This document shows, piece after piece, positions 3,955 through 49,077 of a stretch of DNA of 49,077 nucleotides. How positions within the stretch are numbered: position 1 is the first letter of the stretch; each line of letters begins with the position of its first letter. The notes beneath the pieces were generated by a model. It did not search any database, was not told the DNA's origin, and saw nothing but the letters and a program-made list of their open reading frames with translations. The DNA is taken from positions 1 to 49,077 of the IMG/VR virus record IMGVR_UViG_3300022562_000273; one strand, 5' to 3'. This DNA is from a virus. The translations under genes and the position numbers were made by a program.

Positions 3955-6900
3955 TTCTCACCTCTTATATGTCTGAACCATTTCTCTGGTGTAGCAGAAT
4001 GGCCTTTAGTTCTTCCGTAGCGCAACCCAACACCAGTCTGCCATAGATTTCTTGGGCGCTCTCTTCCAATGTATCTATTGTATATGTACTCCATTACCTT
4101 CCCTTCTTGTGCGTTAGCTAGGCCAGTCAACGCACCGAAGGCTGTGACGCCGTGAGCAATCATGCTTCCTCTGTGTTGCTTCGAGAAAGCGTTCTCTCTA
4201 CGGAGGTCACGTATCAGATCAGTGGCATCCTTCGCAGCAGTGGACATAAGACCTAGCGTTGGGTCCCTGCCTTCTTCGATTGCGTAGGTAAGGTCTCGAA
4301 TACCGATCCAAGAAGAAGTCGTGCCTCTAATAAGAACCTCAGCTGCTTTCTTACCCCAAGACTTCTTCTCTTTGTTAGTTGCTGGGCTAACCATTTCCTC
4401 AATGATTGCCGGAGCAATGATATAAGAGAAGAGCATAACACCAAGGCGAGGCAGTTGCTTTCCTGCTTCGGCAAGCTCTCCTTGCATTGCCAATGACAGA
4501 GTGTCTTTGGATCGCCAAGCTAGCTCGTACTGGCGATTGAGGATATGGCTAAAGAATCCGTAGAGGCTTGTCATCCACTGACCCATAGGACCAGTGCGCA
4601 TGATTGCTGGACGGTTAGTGATTGCCATCGATCCATGAGCGTTACGCACAGCACGATCAGCTTCAAACACAGCGTTGCCATGAATACCATGTGCAAGCAT
4701 TGACTTCTCGTACTGCGCGATCCAAGTCGGTACCGCAGACATAAGGTCCGACAATGCCACAGGCGTTGCGGCTAGCTTAATCATAACCTGTCGCCAAGAC
4801 CTTTCGCCAAGGACTTCTTGATGAGCGCCGGTGATAGTCTCTTGATAAGTTCTCACTCTCTGCTGTAGTTCCTCAGACCCTTTCCAAACCTTACCATCAG
4901 GCAGGATCATCCCACCACCATGCATAGCAAAGTTCCAATTTGAATCCGCAACGCGTTCGCTCTTTGAGAACATGGTGGCGAAAGCTTTGGCGAAGTTGAT
5001 AGGGCCAACCTCTGTAATGGAGTTCATTGCCGCAGTTGGTCCGTGCTTTAGCACAGTTCCAGGATTGAAACCAATCAACGTACTGATGATATTCTGCCGA
5101 GCAAATTCTAACCACTGTGTTCCAATCCTCTGTGCGTCAGAGCGATAGCCGGCTGCACCAGCAACGTCTCGGAGCCAAGGATCGAACAGTTTCTCATATA
5201 CCTCACCGTAGTGGTTGATGACAGCTTGCTTCACATCGTTGTGTCTAAATAACTTCCCTGTGTTAACAACTGCCTCACGCATATTCATATCGTGAATCAT
5301 TTGCTTGATTGTAAATGGAATAGCATCAAGGTCGAGGCTGACTGGACCAACATATCCAGTGCGTTTCTTCATGTAGCTGTTGGCGGTGGAAGCGTTTAGG
5401 TACTGTGGGTCCATCAAATCGTCAGACCCACGAAGGCGCTTGCTCTTTTGCGGAAGCCTGTGATCGTAGGTGACACGGTTGTACCAACCTTTATACGTTC
5501 CAAACTTGGTGACGACAGGACGAATTACAATGTCCTCGCCAGGAACCATCGACATTAACTCGTACCGATTGTCAGCTTCCTTCTTAAGCTCACCAAACAT
5601 ATCCCCTTGCTTCTGTGCCCAATCCCAATCCTCTTTCTTCGCATGGGTATTAAGCCAATCCATTAACTGCGCTGGCTCAATGTTGTAGCCTTCGGTAATC
5701 TTCTTCATACCGCTATCGCTACCGACGTACATCATTGCAGCGCGAAGATTCTTTCGAGTAAGACTAAAGGCATAGCCCTCTTGTGGATGGCGGAATAGAT
5801 CGTTCTCGATCTTCTCGTTTAGATTAACTCTATCTCTAATGGCAAGGAGCTTCTCGCTATAGACTCTCTCCATCGTCCTGGTAGCAAGCGCAGCCTCAAT
5901 CATTGGGCGGGCAATCCATTGCGTCCATACCCCTTGCGGATCGCCACGATCGAACCTTCTAAACAAAGCTTCTAACTGCAAGTGAGATGCAAAGTAAGTA
6001 CGCAAAGCACGAGTCAGCTTACTCGTGGAGGTCTTTTGCATATCAATCTTTTTAAGTGGCATATCAGAGATGGTCTCGGCAAGCTCACCTGCCTTAAGAT
6101 CGAGGTCGGCTTTCTCACCTTCCTTAAACACCAGCTTCTCGTCTCGACCATTCTTAATCAAGGATTCAAGAGAGTAATGTAGCTGCTTGAATTCCTCTGT
6201 TGATAGAGTATCTAGCTTACCTTTGAAAGCAGGGTCCTGCAAGAACTCCGCAACTTCTAAGGGCTGGCGTTGCCTCTCCTGCTTATAGTTAACAAAGTCT
6301 TCAAGCGTCTTGAACCCGCTTCTATTAACTGCCTGTTCTAAATCCTGCACAGTCCTTTTAACACCAATACCAAGGTTCATCATTATCTGATGGATGAAGT
6401 TAGTGTAAGGGATATCGACGCCAGAAACATCTCTGGCAGAGAACCTCTTGGTATTCTTCTTGAATTTCTTGTCTAATTTCTCGAGCTTCTTCGCTTCTTT
6501 GGCGAATAGCATTGCCATGTATTGTTCTTGTCGAGCCTTGAGAGCCTCGATATGATCGTCGAATAAATGCTCTGCAACAATCCTTCGCCAAGCCTTGCCA
6601 GAGGCTGTGATATACTTATCGTAAGAGTGACTAGCGTATGGAGCCTCATTGAACTTCTCTCTGATCCATCCATCCAATTGCTCTTTGGTAATCGGTAACT
6701 GAACGTCACCGGCGCGGACTATAGCAGGACCATCAGGGCCCATGACGATCTTGACGCCAGCTTTAGATGCAAGGCCAAGAACTTCCTCATGGAGAATTCC
6801 AAGTTGCCCTTCGGAGGTGATATGATCCTCAGCCTCTTCGAGAACGTTCTTTTGGAAGTCGCCATATCGCTCTTCCATCAATCGCTTAGTCTCATCGCCA

Positions 6901-41999: not shown

Positions 42000-42176
42000 A
42001 TGCAATTCCAATTCTATTGGCCCTCTTGGTGGAAGCTCTGGCCCACCTATCACTCCACCCTAAGGCAACTCGATATGTCTGCAATCCCCAATGCTCCACT
42101 ATTCGAGTGGCGTGATAACACCTTCTGCTTTGGCCCAATCCAATTCATATGGAGATCGGCACCGACACCAACGTAA
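42000..42176 (+). CDS. 58-aa Trp-rich small protein
   Basis: It starts three bases after the previous stop. The product (MQFQFYWPSWWKLWPTYHSTLRQLDMSAI; FEWRDNTFCFGPIQFIW) is a recognisable short protein in phages, rich in Trp and Phe, which may fold as a small beta sheet. No function is known to me. It was missed by length-based calling because it is under 60 codons. Confidence 0.75.
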   Translation: MQFQFYWPSWWKLWPTYHSTLRQLDMSAIPNAPLFEWRDNTFCFGPIQFIWRSAPTPT

Positions 42177-42186
42177 GGACCATCAA

Positions 42187-43608
42187 ATGGACGCTGCCCT
42201 AAAACCCACCGACGAACAAGTTGCTATTGTCGATCAGATTCTCGAGAACGATGGCAATCTAATGATCCGTTCTCTTGCTGGCACCGGCAAGACCTCTACC
42301 CTTGAGCTAATCCAATCTGTCATTGATATCAAGCCAGTCCTCTACGCCGTCTTCAACAAACGCAACGCTGACGAAGCTGAGGATAAGTTCCCTTCCACTA
42401 CCACCATCCGAACTTGGAATGGCCTCGGCCATCGAGTGTGGATGAAGTCAGTTACCAACAAGGTCACGCTTAACGGAAAGAAGATTGCCGAGCAGCTACG
42501 AGAGCTTATTAAAGAGGCTCCAGCATCAGCCCAAGGCCCACTATGGGACGTGTTTTGGGAAGTGATTGCAGCCGTAGGCATGGCGAAGTCAGTAGGCTAC
42601 GTCCCCGAAGGGAAATACCCTAACGCTCGCCGCCTCTGCACTCGTGAAGAGTTCCACCAGCGTCTTGAGGAAGAACCTGATCCTCTTGTCTCTGACCTTA
42701 TCGATCAGATGCTCTTCACCTCAATCAACCACGCTTACAAAGGCTACATCGACTTCAACGATCAAATCTATATGCCAGCACTCTTTGGCGGAACCTTCCC
42801 CAAGTTCCCATTCAGTATGTTCGACGAAGTCCAAGACCTCAACCCTGTCAATCATGTAATGGCTGAGAAGCTTGGTTCCGGTAGGAAGGTCGCTGTCGGT
42901 GACGATAACCAATCCATCTACTACTTTCGCGGAGCGATGGCTGGCGGAATGTCGAAGATGAAAGAGAAATTTGCCATGAATGAGATGGAGCTATCTATCT
43001 CCTTCCGCTGTCCAGAGGAAATCGTCAAGGCAGCCCATTGGCGAGTACCACAGCTAAAGGCGTTCAAACCTGGAGGACACTATGAACAACTTCAGCGACT
43101 TAACATGGCGACTATACCTGATGATGCTGCTATTATCTGCCGCAATAACGCTCCTTTATTTAAGCTTGCACTACGCCTACTCATGGCTAAGCGCAGCGTC
43201 TCTGTTGCTGGCAGTGATATTGGACCCAAGATTGTAGGCATCATGAAGAAGCTTGGTGATAGCGAGATGGATAAAGAATCGCTGCTTGCAAGGATCGAAG
43301 ATTGGCGAGCAGAGAAGAAAGCGAAGAACTCTTCCACCGCTGACGATATGGCTGAGTGTATGAAGGTCTTTGCCTCCTACGGGGCTACTCTCGGCACCTC
43401 TATCTCCTACGCTGAGCATCTGTTCCAGCAAAGTGGGACTATCCGGTTAATCACTGGCCATAAGTGCAAGGGATTGGAATGGAACACAGTGTACCATCTC
43501 GATCCTTGGCTTATCGGTCTGGACGAACAGGAACTGAACCTGCGATACGTTATCACTACGCGTTCTCGAGATAAACTGTTTGAAATCAACTCTGTTGGAA
43601 TAATCTAA
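42187..43608 (+). CDS. UvrD/Rep-type superfamily 1 DNA helicase
   Basis: The ATG at 42187 (AAGGA upstream) gives 473 aa. Motif I LAGTGKTST (30-38), motif II FDEVQD (212-217), motif III GDDNQSIYYFRGA (238-250), motif IV SISFRCP, motif V GHKCKGLEW and motif VI TTRSRDKL show an intact SF1A helicase that unwinds DNA 3'-5'. It is shorter than bacterial UvrD, lacking large 1B/2B insertions. It probably works with the RecB-like nuclease and Sak4-like ATPase downstream in repair or recombination. Confidence 0.92.
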   Translation: MDAALKPTDEQVAIVDQILENDGNLMIRSLAGTGKTSTLELIQSVIDIKPVLYAVFNKRNADEAEDKFPSTTTIRTWNGLGHRVWMKSVTNKVTLNGKKIAEQLRELIKEAPASAQGPLWDVFWEVIAAVGMAKSVGYVPEGKYPNARRLCTREEFHQRLEEEPDPLVSDLIDQMLFTSINHAYKGYIDFNDQIYMPALFGGTFPKFPFSMFDEVQDLNPVNHVMAEKLGSGRKVAVGDDNQSIYYFRGAMAGGMSKMKEKFAMNEMELSISFRCPEEIVKAAHWRVPQLKAFKPGGHYEQLQRLNMATIPDDAAIICRNNAPLFKLALRLLMAKRSVSVAGSDIGPKIVGIMKKLGDSEMDKESLLARIEDWRAEKKAKNSSTADDMAECMKVFASYGATLGTSISYAEHLFQQSGTIRLITGHKCKGLEWNTVYHLDPWLIGLDEQELNLRYVITTRSRDKLFEINSVGII

Positions 43609-45377: not shown

Positions 45378-45574
45378 AGCCACTTCGTTTAGTTCTCAAT
45401 CTAGGTAAGTACCGCGTAGCTAGTCGAGAGAATCTCCAAATGAAAATCGCCCTTGGCGGTTCCACGACTATGACAGTTACTCTACCACCACACGCTGACG
45501 TCCGTGAGGGCGATATCCTAACCCTATACACTGAGGTACTCTATGCCGAGCCTAGCAAAACACCAGTCCAGTAA
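45353..45574 (+). CDS. 73-aa beta-rich protein between nuclease and ATPase
   Basis: GAGGAAGAGAG precedes the ATG. The product (LRLVLNLGKYRVASRENLQMKIALGGSTTMTVTLPPHADVREGDILTLYTEV) has the strand-rich look of a small OB or beta-barrel. It overlaps both neighbours (25 and 32 nt). Unknown function. Confidence 0.7.
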   Translation: MESAQGPVKPLRLVLNLGKYRVASRENLQMKIALGGSTTMTVTLPPHADVREGDILTLYTEVLYAEPSKTPVQ

Positions 45575-46487
45575 ATTCACCAAGCTAATCCTTCTAGGAG
45601 ATTCTAAATCTGGCAAGACAGGCTCAGTCGCCTCTCTTGTCTGCGAAGGCTATAAGGTCCGCATCCTAGATATGGACAACGGTCTCGACGTTCTAAAGCA
45701 ATTCGTTATGAAGAATTGCCCTGACAAAGTTGACAACGTCGAGTATCGAACCCTTCGAGATAACTATAAAGCGTCTCCGATAGGGCCGATTATCGATGGT
45801 CCGCCAAGGGCCTTTCCAGACGCGCTAAAGATGCTCGATAGATGGAAATACAAAGACGAAGATGGAAATGAGATAGACCTTGGCGATCCAGCTGAGTGGG
45901 GAGAAGATACAATCCTTGTTGTTGACTCTCTATCCTTTCTCTCCGATGCAGCCTTCGCTTTCCGAGAGCCTATGGCGAAGAAGGGCGACTCTGGAAAGTA
46001 CGATATGCGTTCCGTCTATGGCGATGCCCAGGACGCTATCGAGAAGGTCCTCGATCAGCTAACCTCTGACAAGTTTTGCACCAACGTGATTGTCATCGCT
46101 CACGTTCGATATGTTGATAATCCCGATGGTACAAAGAAGGGCTACCCTGTCTCAGTCGGCAGCGCCCTTTCACCCACCATCCCACGGTACTTTAACACCG
46201 TCATAAGGTACAAGACCGTTGGATCAAAGAGAACGATCGAGACAGTCTCATCGGCAATGTTCGACCTAGCGAACCCAGCACCATTCGCTGTGCAAAACAC
46301 CTATCCGCTAGAGACAGGCCTTGCCGATATCTTCAAAGTCCTTCGTGCGCAATCAAAGGAGGTGATGCCGAGTGGACCCAAACAACCAGTTTCCAACGAT
46401 AAAACGCCAGAAAGAAAGGGGGTGATTACAGCTATCAAGCCTCTGGCTAAGGCAGCCCAGCAACCAAAACTTTCACGCAGAATCTAA
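45543..46487 (+). CDS. Sak4-like RecA-fold ATPase (recombinase)
   Basis: The 314-aa protein has Walker A GDSKSGKTG (19-27) after a LILL strand, DMDNGLDVL following the next strand, and Walker B TILVVDSLS (123-131), as in phage Sak4/RecA-like nucleotide-binding proteins. IAHVRYV with GYPVSVGSALSPTIPRYFN also fits. In other phages this protein promotes single-strand annealing with an SSB partner; an SSB-like gene follows directly here. Confidence 0.85.
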   Translation: MPSLAKHQSSKFTKLILLGDSKSGKTGSVASLVCEGYKVRILDMDNGLDVLKQFVMKNCPDKVDNVEYRTLRDNYKASPIGPIIDGPPRAFPDALKMLDRWKYKDEDGNEIDLGDPAEWGEDTILVVDSLSFLSDAAFAFREPMAKKGDSGKYDMRSVYGDAQDAIEKVLDQLTSDKFCTNVIVIAHVRYVDNPDGTKKGYPVSVGSALSPTIPRYFNTVIRYKTVGSKRTIETVSSAMFDLANPAPFAVQNTYPLETGLADIFKVLRAQSKEVMPSGPKQPVSNDKTPERKGVITAIKPLAKAAQQPKLSRRI

Positions 46488-47274: not shown

Positions 47275-47526
47275 ATGGATCGAGACCCTCTACTCCAAGA
47301 GCGAGAGAAGACGCATGGATCATTTCAACGCAACGCTGAAATAAGTATTAAGCTTAAGCTTTTATTTAATGATTTTGGTGCTGACCGTTTCAAATATGTA
47401 CACCAAGAAGCCCTTGGTATGATCGCCCTCAAACTCTCCCGTATCCTATCAGGCCAGGCTAATTTCAAAGACCATTGGGACGACATAGCTGGGTACGCCA
47501 AACTAGGAAGCGAAGCTTGTGACTAA
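47275..47526 (+). CDS. DUF6378-like protein, 83 aa
   Basis: AAGGAGAAAGCG precedes the ATG. The product has REKTHGSFQRNAEISIKLK, HQEALGMIALKLSRILSGQ and DHWDDIAGYAKL, the pattern of a very common phage protein (DUF6378, related in look to MazG-like all-alpha folds). Its role may be in nucleotide metabolism. It overlaps the UDG-exonuclease gene by 8 nt, so it is coupled to the polymerase operon. Confidence 0.82.
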   Translation: MDRDPLLQEREKTHGSFQRNAEISIKLKLLFNDFGADRFKYVHQEALGMIALKLSRILSGQANFKDHWDDIAGYAKLGSEACD

Positions 47527-48538
47527 CATCGTCATCGTAGGAGAAGCCTATGGCGAACAGGAAGAGAAAGCACAGACGGCCTTTGTTGGGGCTGCCGGAT
47601 ACGAACTTAATCGCATGCTCGATGAGGCTGGACTACGTCGAGCGGACTGTTACGTTACAAATGTCTTCAATCGACGGCCCACGAATAACAAGATTGAAGC
47701 TTTCTGCGGCCCAAAGCAGGAAGGTATTCGGGGATATCCGCCTCTTACTAAGTCAGGATACGTTCGCAAGGAATATGTCCCAGAGCTTGAGAGACTAGCA
47801 GATGAGATTGTCTCGTACAACCCAAACCTAATCCTCGCCCTCGGCAACACTCCACTATGGGCTCTTGGCGGAAAGACAGGGATTACCAAATACCGTGGCG
47901 TTCCATTCATCTCAACCCACACAGCCACTGGCTATAAGGTACTTCCCACCTATCATCCAGCAGGTATCTTTCGTCAATGGAGCCACCGCCCAATCGCAAT
48001 CGTCGATCTTATCAAGGCAAAGCGTGAGTCTGAGTACCCTGAGATAAGGAGGCCTCATCGTGAAATCTGGATCGAGCCGTCCCTCGAAGACCTCGAAGAA
48101 TTCTATAATCGATATATCAATGTGCCACCTAAGAGAGTTTCGGTTGATATTGAAACAGTTGGAGACCAGATCACATGCATTGGTTTTGCTCCCACCCCCA
48201 GAATTGCGCTCGTTATTCCGTTCTATGACTCCAGAAGAAAGGGAAGACATTATTGGTTTGATAGAGATAGAGAGCGTCTTGCTTGGCTCTTTGTTAAACG
48301 AATTCTATCTGACAAAGACATTAAGAAGACCTTCCAAAATGGTGCGTACGACATTGCGTTCCAGTGGAGGTCAATGGGTTTAGAAACCTACGGTGCGGAT
48401 GAGGACACTATGCTATTGCACCACTCGCTACAGCCTGAGAGTCTCAAAGGCCTCGGCTTTCTTGGCTCCATCTACACTGATGAGGGAGCTTGGAAAATCG
48501 AGAGGAAGGGGACTTCAACTATTAAGAGGGATGAATGA
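47519..48538 (+). CDS. Uracil-DNA glycosylase fused to 3'-5' exonuclease (ExoI/ExoII part)
   Basis: The protein is 339 aa from a GTG start. Residues 1-170 match family 4/5 uracil-DNA glycosylases: GEAYGEQE (8-15), FVGAAGYELNRML, YVTNVFNRRP, LALGNTPLWALGG, YRG and YHPAGIFRQ (145-152). The N-terminal iron-sulfur cysteines of family 4 are missing. Residues about 200-339 begin the DEDD exonuclease domain: ExoI DIE (Asp210, Glu212), ExoII NGAYD (Asn274-Asp278) and DTMLLHH (Asp296). The ExoIII YxxxD motif is in the next gene, which starts in an ATGA overlap. Together they make a split UDG-exonuclease-polymerase. Confidence 0.88.
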   Translation: MTNIVIVGEAYGEQEEKAQTAFVGAAGYELNRMLDEAGLRRADCYVTNVFNRRPTNNKIEAFCGPKQEGIRGYPPLTKSGYVRKEYVPELERLADEIVSYNPNLILALGNTPLWALGGKTGITKYRGVPFISTHTATGYKVLPTYHPAGIFRQWSHRPIAIVDLIKAKRESEYPEIRRPHREIWIEPSLEDLEEFYNRYINVPPKRVSVDIETVGDQITCIGFAPTPRIALVIPFYDSRRKGRHYWFDRDRERLAWLFVKRILSDKDIKKTFQNGAYDIAFQWRSMGLETYGADEDTMLLHHSLQPESLKGLGFLGSIYTDEGAWKIERKGTSTIKRDE

Positions 48539-49077
48539 GAATCATCCACACCGACAAGGTTACACCCAAGGAAGTCAGAACCCAAGTCGAAAAGGATTGG
48601 GTTTACAACGGTCTCGATGCCTGTGTCACAGCAGAGGTTCTTGAAATCCTTCTCCCTGACCTCGACGAATACACTTCCAAGACATACGAGTTCGCCAAGG
48701 CTCTCCAGGCCCCTGTCTTAGAGATGCGGATGCGTGGCGTTCTCATCGACCAGAAACGCAAGCGAGAAGTTATCAACTCTTACTACGATGACCTCGATCG
48801 TTTAGAGCGCCAGTTAGATCGAATTGTCCTCGATGGTTGTGGAATGAGCAAGTTCAACTGGCGTTCCACCTACGACCTAAGGGAGTTGTTCTATGATCGC
48901 CTTGGAATTCCCGCTATACGAAAACACGGAAAAGTCACTGTTAACAGGGACGCTCTTGAACGAATTGAGTCTTACTTTTCTGCGAAACAAATTGTTGCTC
49001 ATATCATCCTTCTTAGAGAAATTGGAAAAAAGATATCGGTCCTCAAAACTGAAATCGACCCTGACAATAGAATACGA
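48535..49077 (+). CDS. Family A DNA polymerase, N-terminal part (continues at base 1)
   Basis: The ATG at 48535 overlaps the UDG-exonuclease stop (ATGA). The frame just upstream of it is closed by TGA. The product begins with the missing exonuclease motif: YNGLDACVT has Tyr24 and Asp28 (YxxxD, ExoIII). Then come FAKALQAPVLEMRMRGVLID (conserved in phage polymerases), the thumb helices, and the junction at residue 134. It reads on into base 1 of the window. Confidence 0.93.
   Translation, partial: MRIIHTDKVTPKEVRTQVEKDWVYNGLDACVTAEVLEILLPDLDEYTSKTYEFAKALQAPVLEMRMRGVLIDQKRKREVINSYYDDLDRLERQLDRIVLDGCGMSKFNWRSTYDLRELFYDRLGIPAIRKHGKVTVNRDALERIESYFSAKQIVAHIILLREIGKKISVLKTEIDPDNRIR
48934..49077. repeat. 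Terminal direct repeat, right copy
   Basis: Exact copy of bases 1-144; see the left copy. Confidence 0.95.

Follow-up and report, generated by a model that had tools for sequence, protein, structure and literature searches.

Introduction

Fusions of a uracil-DNA glycosylase (UDG) to a polymerase and phage polymerases split between genes both exist, as a preliminary description of the locus studied here had held. Among split enzymes, 43A and 43B of phage 25 co-purify with polymerase activity and the split nrdA of phage Aeh1 is active, and the insertion of mobile endonucleases in T4-like phages, followed by their replacement or loss, has been reviewed (PMC2988022). Among fusions, Microcystis phage Mel-JY34 and Manatee Spring phage ctMlz233 encode UDG, exonuclease and polymerase as one polypeptide. 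Bacillus phage SPO1 gp31 likewise combines a UDG-like N-terminal domain with an exonuclease and a family A polymerase, and its gene carries an intron that harbours an endonuclease gene. The recently solved phiLo family A DNA polymerase (PDB 9qhs) is a single 1142-residue chain whose start matches a UDG profile, and it offers a fused structural reference for this UDG-exonuclease-polymerase family. The poxvirus polymerase holoenzyme includes a UDG that is crucial for DNA association (PMC10115419).

Here we describe a phage locus, and its relatives, in which a UDG-exonuclease-polymerase is divided between two genes within the exonuclease active site.

Results

Two overlapping genes share the exonuclease motifs

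In the window (the whole stretch of 49,077 nt that was analysed), open reading frames, motifs and Pfam matches well beyond chance bear out the preliminary arrangement of a UDG with exonuclease motifs ExoI and ExoII in one frame and ExoIII with the polymerase in the next, joined by ATGA. The complete polymerase described for the second frame is that of the joined genome; in the linear window the gene 2 frame runs off the end after 181 aa. Positions 1-144 and 48934-49077 are identical, and joining this 144-nt terminal repeat yields a closed 48,933-nt phage genome in which gene 2 encodes 495 aa; the window was thus opened inside the polymerase gene. The features are as follows.

42091-43608, + strand: UvrD-like helicase gene, upstream (profile matches)
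45543-46487, + strand: Sak4-like ssDNA annealing ATPase gene, upstream (AAA_24, PHROG 124)
47519-48538, + strand: gene 1, UDG-exonuclease (ExoI/ExoII) protein, 339 aa, GTG start (open reading frame; Pfam UDG, E=2.4e-19)
47522-48028, + strand: family-4-like UDG domain that lacks the N-terminal CxxC found in the Fe-S enzymes (sequence and fold matches; cysteine survey)
47540-47566, + strand: UDG motif GEAYGEQEE (conservation counts)
47951-47965, + strand: UDG motif YHPAG (conservation counts)
48146-48157, + strand: ExoI, DIET, with D210 and E212 (conservation counts)
48335-48352, + strand: ExoII, QNGAYD, with N274 and D278 (conservation counts)
48524-48529, + strand: AAGAGG, Shine-Dalgarno-like, within conserved C-terminal codons of gene 1 and 5 nt before the polymerase ATG (codon bias, spacing)
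48532-48534, + strand: TGA in the polymerase frame, abutting the polymerase ATG (sequence, frames)
48535-49077, + strand: start of gene 2 (ExoIII-polymerase, 495 aa in total), in ATGA overlap with gene 1 (open reading frame)
48604-48618, + strand: ExoIII, YNGLD, gene 2 residues 24-28, with Y24 and D28 (conservation counts)
1-1089, + strand: remainder of gene 2 after the circular join, family A polymerase thumb, palm and fingers, its positions 1-144 repeating the last 144 nt of the window (Pfam DNA_pol_A, E=1.1e-29; terminal repeat)
1010-2224, + strand: DUF3987 / PHROG 14296 primase-like gene, just downstream of gene 2 (profile matches)

The gene 1 protein aligns with positions 481-789 of the PHROG 17 DNA polymerase profile (E=1.1e-26), and a third UDG motif, TNVFNRRP, lies in the same frame. 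Its same-strand neighbours are replication genes, the upstream set also including a PD-(D/E)XK nuclease. A DUF6378 gene at 47275-47526 overlaps the start of gene 1.

The glycosylase domain keeps its catalytic motifs and lacks Fe-S ligands

The UDG domain matches solved family 4 enzymes, TM0511, 1ui0 and 4zbx among them, by sequence as well as by fold, with E=2.6e-29 against 1l9g for profile A2 and a Foldseek match to the same structure at 5e-11 (target TM 0.65). The catalytic motifs GE..G..E, TN....P..N and HP are present, and the proline of the family 4 GEAPG motif is replaced in relatives, mostly by W or Y. Among 74 non-redundant relatives, E9 is kept in 73 (with D in the remaining one), E15 and H146 in 73 each, F22 in 72, and N48 and P147 in all 74. 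The gene 1 protein is without the four-cysteine Fe-S cluster: it starts at motif A, and its UDG region has only C44 and C63. Two distant fused relatives, vir526 and L007, keep the four-cysteine pattern. The family 4 assignment made from the motifs is thus upheld in a qualified form, as family-4-like only, because the Fe-S ligands are missing.

From these motifs, the domain may excise uracil. It could instead be mainly a structural or processivity part of an assembled pair, like the poxvirus glycosylase, and not a base-excision enzyme; the poxvirus precedent and the absence of the canonical family 4 Fe-S ligands favour this reading, while the near-complete retention of E9, F22, N48 and H146 counts against it without fully separating the two roles. 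We consider a mainly structural role somewhat unlikely; it concerns only what the UDG does, and is compatible with the explanation of the split that we prefer.

The split is a trait of the lineage

Relatives were gathered from IMG/VR, in which 559 stretches encode a relative matching the UDG-exonuclease profile. The best 80 of these 559, together with earlier matches, one genome-contig match and the isolated Caulobacter phage Kuura, provided 89 UDG-exonuclease proteins, of which 74 were non-redundant once proteins with 95% identity or more had been removed; the polymerase gene was visible beside 71. In this sample all 71 loci are cut between ExoII and ExoIII, and none encodes a fused UDG-exonuclease-polymerase. 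Kuura is split at the same point, and a scan of genome contigs yielded just three loci, of which one belongs to the clade and is split too. The distance between the two genes ranges from an overlap to 1,010 nt, with 18/71 within 20 nt of each other and 50/71 separated by at least 120 nt. In two loci the genes lie in the same frame with one stop codon between them (L088, TAG at 1933-1935; L095, TAA at 2790-2792).

These loci bear on whether the two genes are really one, broken by an indel from assembly or sequencing. Although a one-base change could yield an ATGA overlap, the window's junction recurs in a second contig (L011/L025), and the split falls at the same point, with differing inserts, in dozens of diverged relatives, so a local error of assembly does not explain it. 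Kuura is moreover a plaque-forming isolate, and a restriction digest was used to check its assembly. An indel at the junction, raised in the preliminary description as a way to undo the split, is thereby ruled out for practical purposes, and we give it a vanishingly small chance; the ExoII/ExoIII split is a lineage trait and not an error.

Active-site residues are invariant on both sides of the cut

The DEDDy set of a family A 3'-5' proofreading exonuclease, comprising ExoI D/E, ExoII D and ExoIII YxxxD, is complete and invariant, but divided over two genes. ExoI D210 and E212 and ExoII N274 and D278 are each kept in 74/74 non-redundant UDG-exonuclease proteins, and ExoIII Y24 and D28 in 71/71 polymerase proteins. 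Family A polymerase motifs A, B and C are present, with D230, R297/K301 and H414 D415 invariant where covered. Distances in the two halves are correlated (Mantel r=0.87, 0/999), as plain co-inheritance of neighbouring genes would also produce. We know of no purpose that the ExoIII residues would serve without the other half of the exonuclease, and their invariance therefore argues strongly that the two proteins contribute to a single site. The proposal that two proteins share the exonuclease active site, and must assemble if it is used, agrees with this conservation on both pieces.

The polymerase could instead have given up proofreading, with the UDG-exonuclease an independent repair nuclease-glycosylase, no longer part of the polymerase. 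In favour of this, the polymerase retains all of its own motifs, and AlphaFold2 predicts the gene 1 protein alone to be well folded (pLDDT 90.6). However, the ExoIII tyrosine and aspartate, useless without ExoI and ExoII, are kept in every polymerase, as ExoI and ExoII are in every partner; the two genes are never more than about 1 kb apart; and the last 30-40 residues of the lone gene 1 model fall to a pLDDT of 46-72, as expected if a partner helix is missing. We regard two independent enzymes as improbable.

We modelled the two halves with AlphaFold as a tethered chain of 839 residues by reading the single in-frame TAA of L095 as Gly. The predicted structure (pLDDT 87.8, pTM 0.84) aligns with E. 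coli Pol I over 648 columns at a target TM of 0.78. In this model the new N-terminus of the polymerase (residues 339-342) forms a strand, and the tail TIKRED has very low confidence. The two predicted halves are compatible with one Klenow-like fold; the model is no independent test of binding, because the halves were forced together and the alignment contained fused relatives. Together with the conservation, it supports reassembly of the two proteins as a putative heterodimer, which would be expected to proofread.

The split arose once, where relatives are fused

Fused UDG-exonuclease-polymerase relatives occur on many IMG/VR contigs as well as in Mel-JY34, ctMlz233, vir526 and a Desulfofustis phage. 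A tree built from 87 concatenated proteins places all 46 split rows in a single group (support 99) adjoining the fused relatives; Mel-JY34 and ctMlz233, which have the same domain order, belong to the sister group, and Kuura, whose junction holds two small genes, is the deepest branch of the split group. The split thus lies at a point where relatives are fused and has a single origin. Homologs with the exonuclease site complete in one gene, which the preliminary description had weighed against its reading, do exist in the sister clade (e.g. Mel-JY34) and never within the clade itself; the split is therefore derived, and fixed in the clade.

Fused relatives link the WK residues to ExoIII through 17 residues in 71/88 cases and through 17-18 in 81/88. 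The split proteins have approximately 13 plus 22 residues in place of this linker, with conserved tails TIKRDD and MKIIxT, indicating that both proteins gained a tail.

Inserts occupy the junction at the 50 loci with at least 120 nt between the genes. They span 120-1,010 nt and are nearly all coding, consisting of short genes from many unrelated families. HNH_3 genes lie in the junction of three loci (L021, L046 and L067), weaker HNH matches were found in L015 and in the insert family of L052, L074 and L094, and an endonuclease VII match in L090. Most inserts are other small genes and not endonucleases, and no endonuclease gene remains at the window's own break, so a mobile-element origin is inferred; a mobile endonuclease was probably the cause of the split. 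The inserts fit the course reviewed for T4-like phages, in which mobile endonucleases insert and are later replaced or lost. Small proteins resembling DUF7768, DUF1937 or nucleoside deoxyribosyltransferase recur in the junctions of different lineages (L020, L022, L024, L021 and L085).

We also considered a hidden intron that would restore one protein and rejected it: an Rfam scan that covered the window and seven insert-bearing loci found no intron, and the inserts consist of coding sequence.

Other breaks occur in the sister group. Five loci (L006, L104, L120, L125 and L131) carry a second, independent split near polymerase residue 210, in the NLQN region, with inserts of up to about 1 kb and close to the SPO1 intron site. 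Further breaks between the UDG and exonuclease domains are present in L123, L129 and L164, and L128 has one in-frame stop (4495-4498) where its UDG domain ends.

The junction sequence favours coupled translation over a frameshift

In most relatives the gene 1 protein ends in T-I-K-R-D-D/E. The codon for the tail arginine is AGG in 28/47 relatives, compared to 9% of arginine codons elsewhere in the gene, and in the window this AGG yields AAGAGG five nucleotides before the polymerase ATG. The hexamer looks like a Shine-Dalgarno site, set within the coding sequence of gene 1, that would serve whichever gene comes next. The conserved T and I ahead of the tail arginine are unexplained by such a role. 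The tail as a pure docking motif was considered and set aside, since the codon bias points to at least partial service as a Shine-Dalgarno site.

A programmed -1 frameshift, or a bypass, would give a fused polymerase in a fraction of translations, and the preliminary description had proposed such a product, from gat gaa to atg. The second gene of the window does overlap by ATGA and lie in the -1 frame, which is also the frame of most relatives with an adjacent junction. However, the polymerase-frame TGA at 48532-48534 abuts the ATG, and gene 1 stops at 48536-48538, so that GAA is the sole slippable codon and would slip onto UGA; a slippery heptamer is absent from the window's junction. Fusion is impossible across the long gaps of the 50 relatives with 120 nt or more between the genes, and in L088 and L095 the two genes share a frame that a stop codon interrupts. 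The junction thus offers no route to a shifted fusion, the proposed product is discarded, and we judge a frameshift or bypass highly improbable.

Discussion

We think it very likely that this locus encodes a polymerase in pieces: split once, probably by a mobile endonuclease, then fixed, translationally coupled and reassembling into one proofreading site. An ancestral single-chain UDG-exonuclease-polymerase gene would have been split between ExoII and ExoIII in the ancestor of the clade, most likely by insertion of a mobile gene of the HNH or endonuclease VII type, and its reading frame would never have been restored. The break site may then have remained a hot spot for insertion, at which inserts were replaced or lost, and loss of the insert in some lineages, including that of the window, would have left the ATGA overlap. 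The two proteins would be made from one mRNA by coupled translation, with the Shine-Dalgarno site inside the 3' codons of gene 1. On assembly, ExoI D/E and ExoII D of the first protein and ExoIII Y/D of the second would come together as one proofreading site, and the exonuclease subunit would carry the UDG domain.

As the preliminary description suggested, the fork enzyme may carry the UDG to look for uracil, and the split may tune proofreading. The UDG-exonuclease might further be a detachable subunit for proofreading and uracil surveillance, so that the polymerase would work with or without proofreading according to the level of the subunit. This is a doubtful extension; if true, it would be the family A counterpart of replicases with a separate proofreading subunit.

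At this locus a nuclease active site is naturally divided, and the division persists through the whole sampled diversity of a large, mostly uncultured phage clade. It is a ready system for asking how two chains build the proofreading centre of a polymerase, and whether a glycosylase held by the exonuclease attacks uracil as DNA is copied. The locus further shows that gene annotation can miss a proofreading subunit, as in Kuura, where the first half is labelled 'hypothetical protein'.

In the literature searched, with most subscription journals outside its coverage, we found no description of an ExoII/ExoIII split, whether or not clade-wide and attached to a UDG. The closest cases are nrdA of Aeh1 and 43A/43B of phage 25, in which, as here, an essential phage enzyme is encoded in two genes; those breaks are linked with an inserted mobile endonuclease or a spacer that is not translated. 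The halves of those enzymes assemble and are active, whereas assembly of the pair in the window is predicted. Those splits moreover concern a reductase and a family B polymerase in a few T4-like phages, whereas this one concerns a family A polymerase, cuts within the exonuclease active site, has a UDG attached, and is fixed in a clade with variable inserts. Unlike the split clade, Mel-JY34 and ctMlz233 retain one chain, and SPO1 gp31 differs in having ExoI-III within one exon, a single protein formed by splicing and its break in the polymerase domain. The poxvirus holoenzyme (E4/D4) likewise holds a UDG in a viral replicase, but its polymerase is of family B, and its UDG is a protein of its own, connected through a third one. 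Each ingredient of the present locus therefore has a precedent; for a cut within the exonuclease active site that a whole clade has fixed, we found none in that literature.
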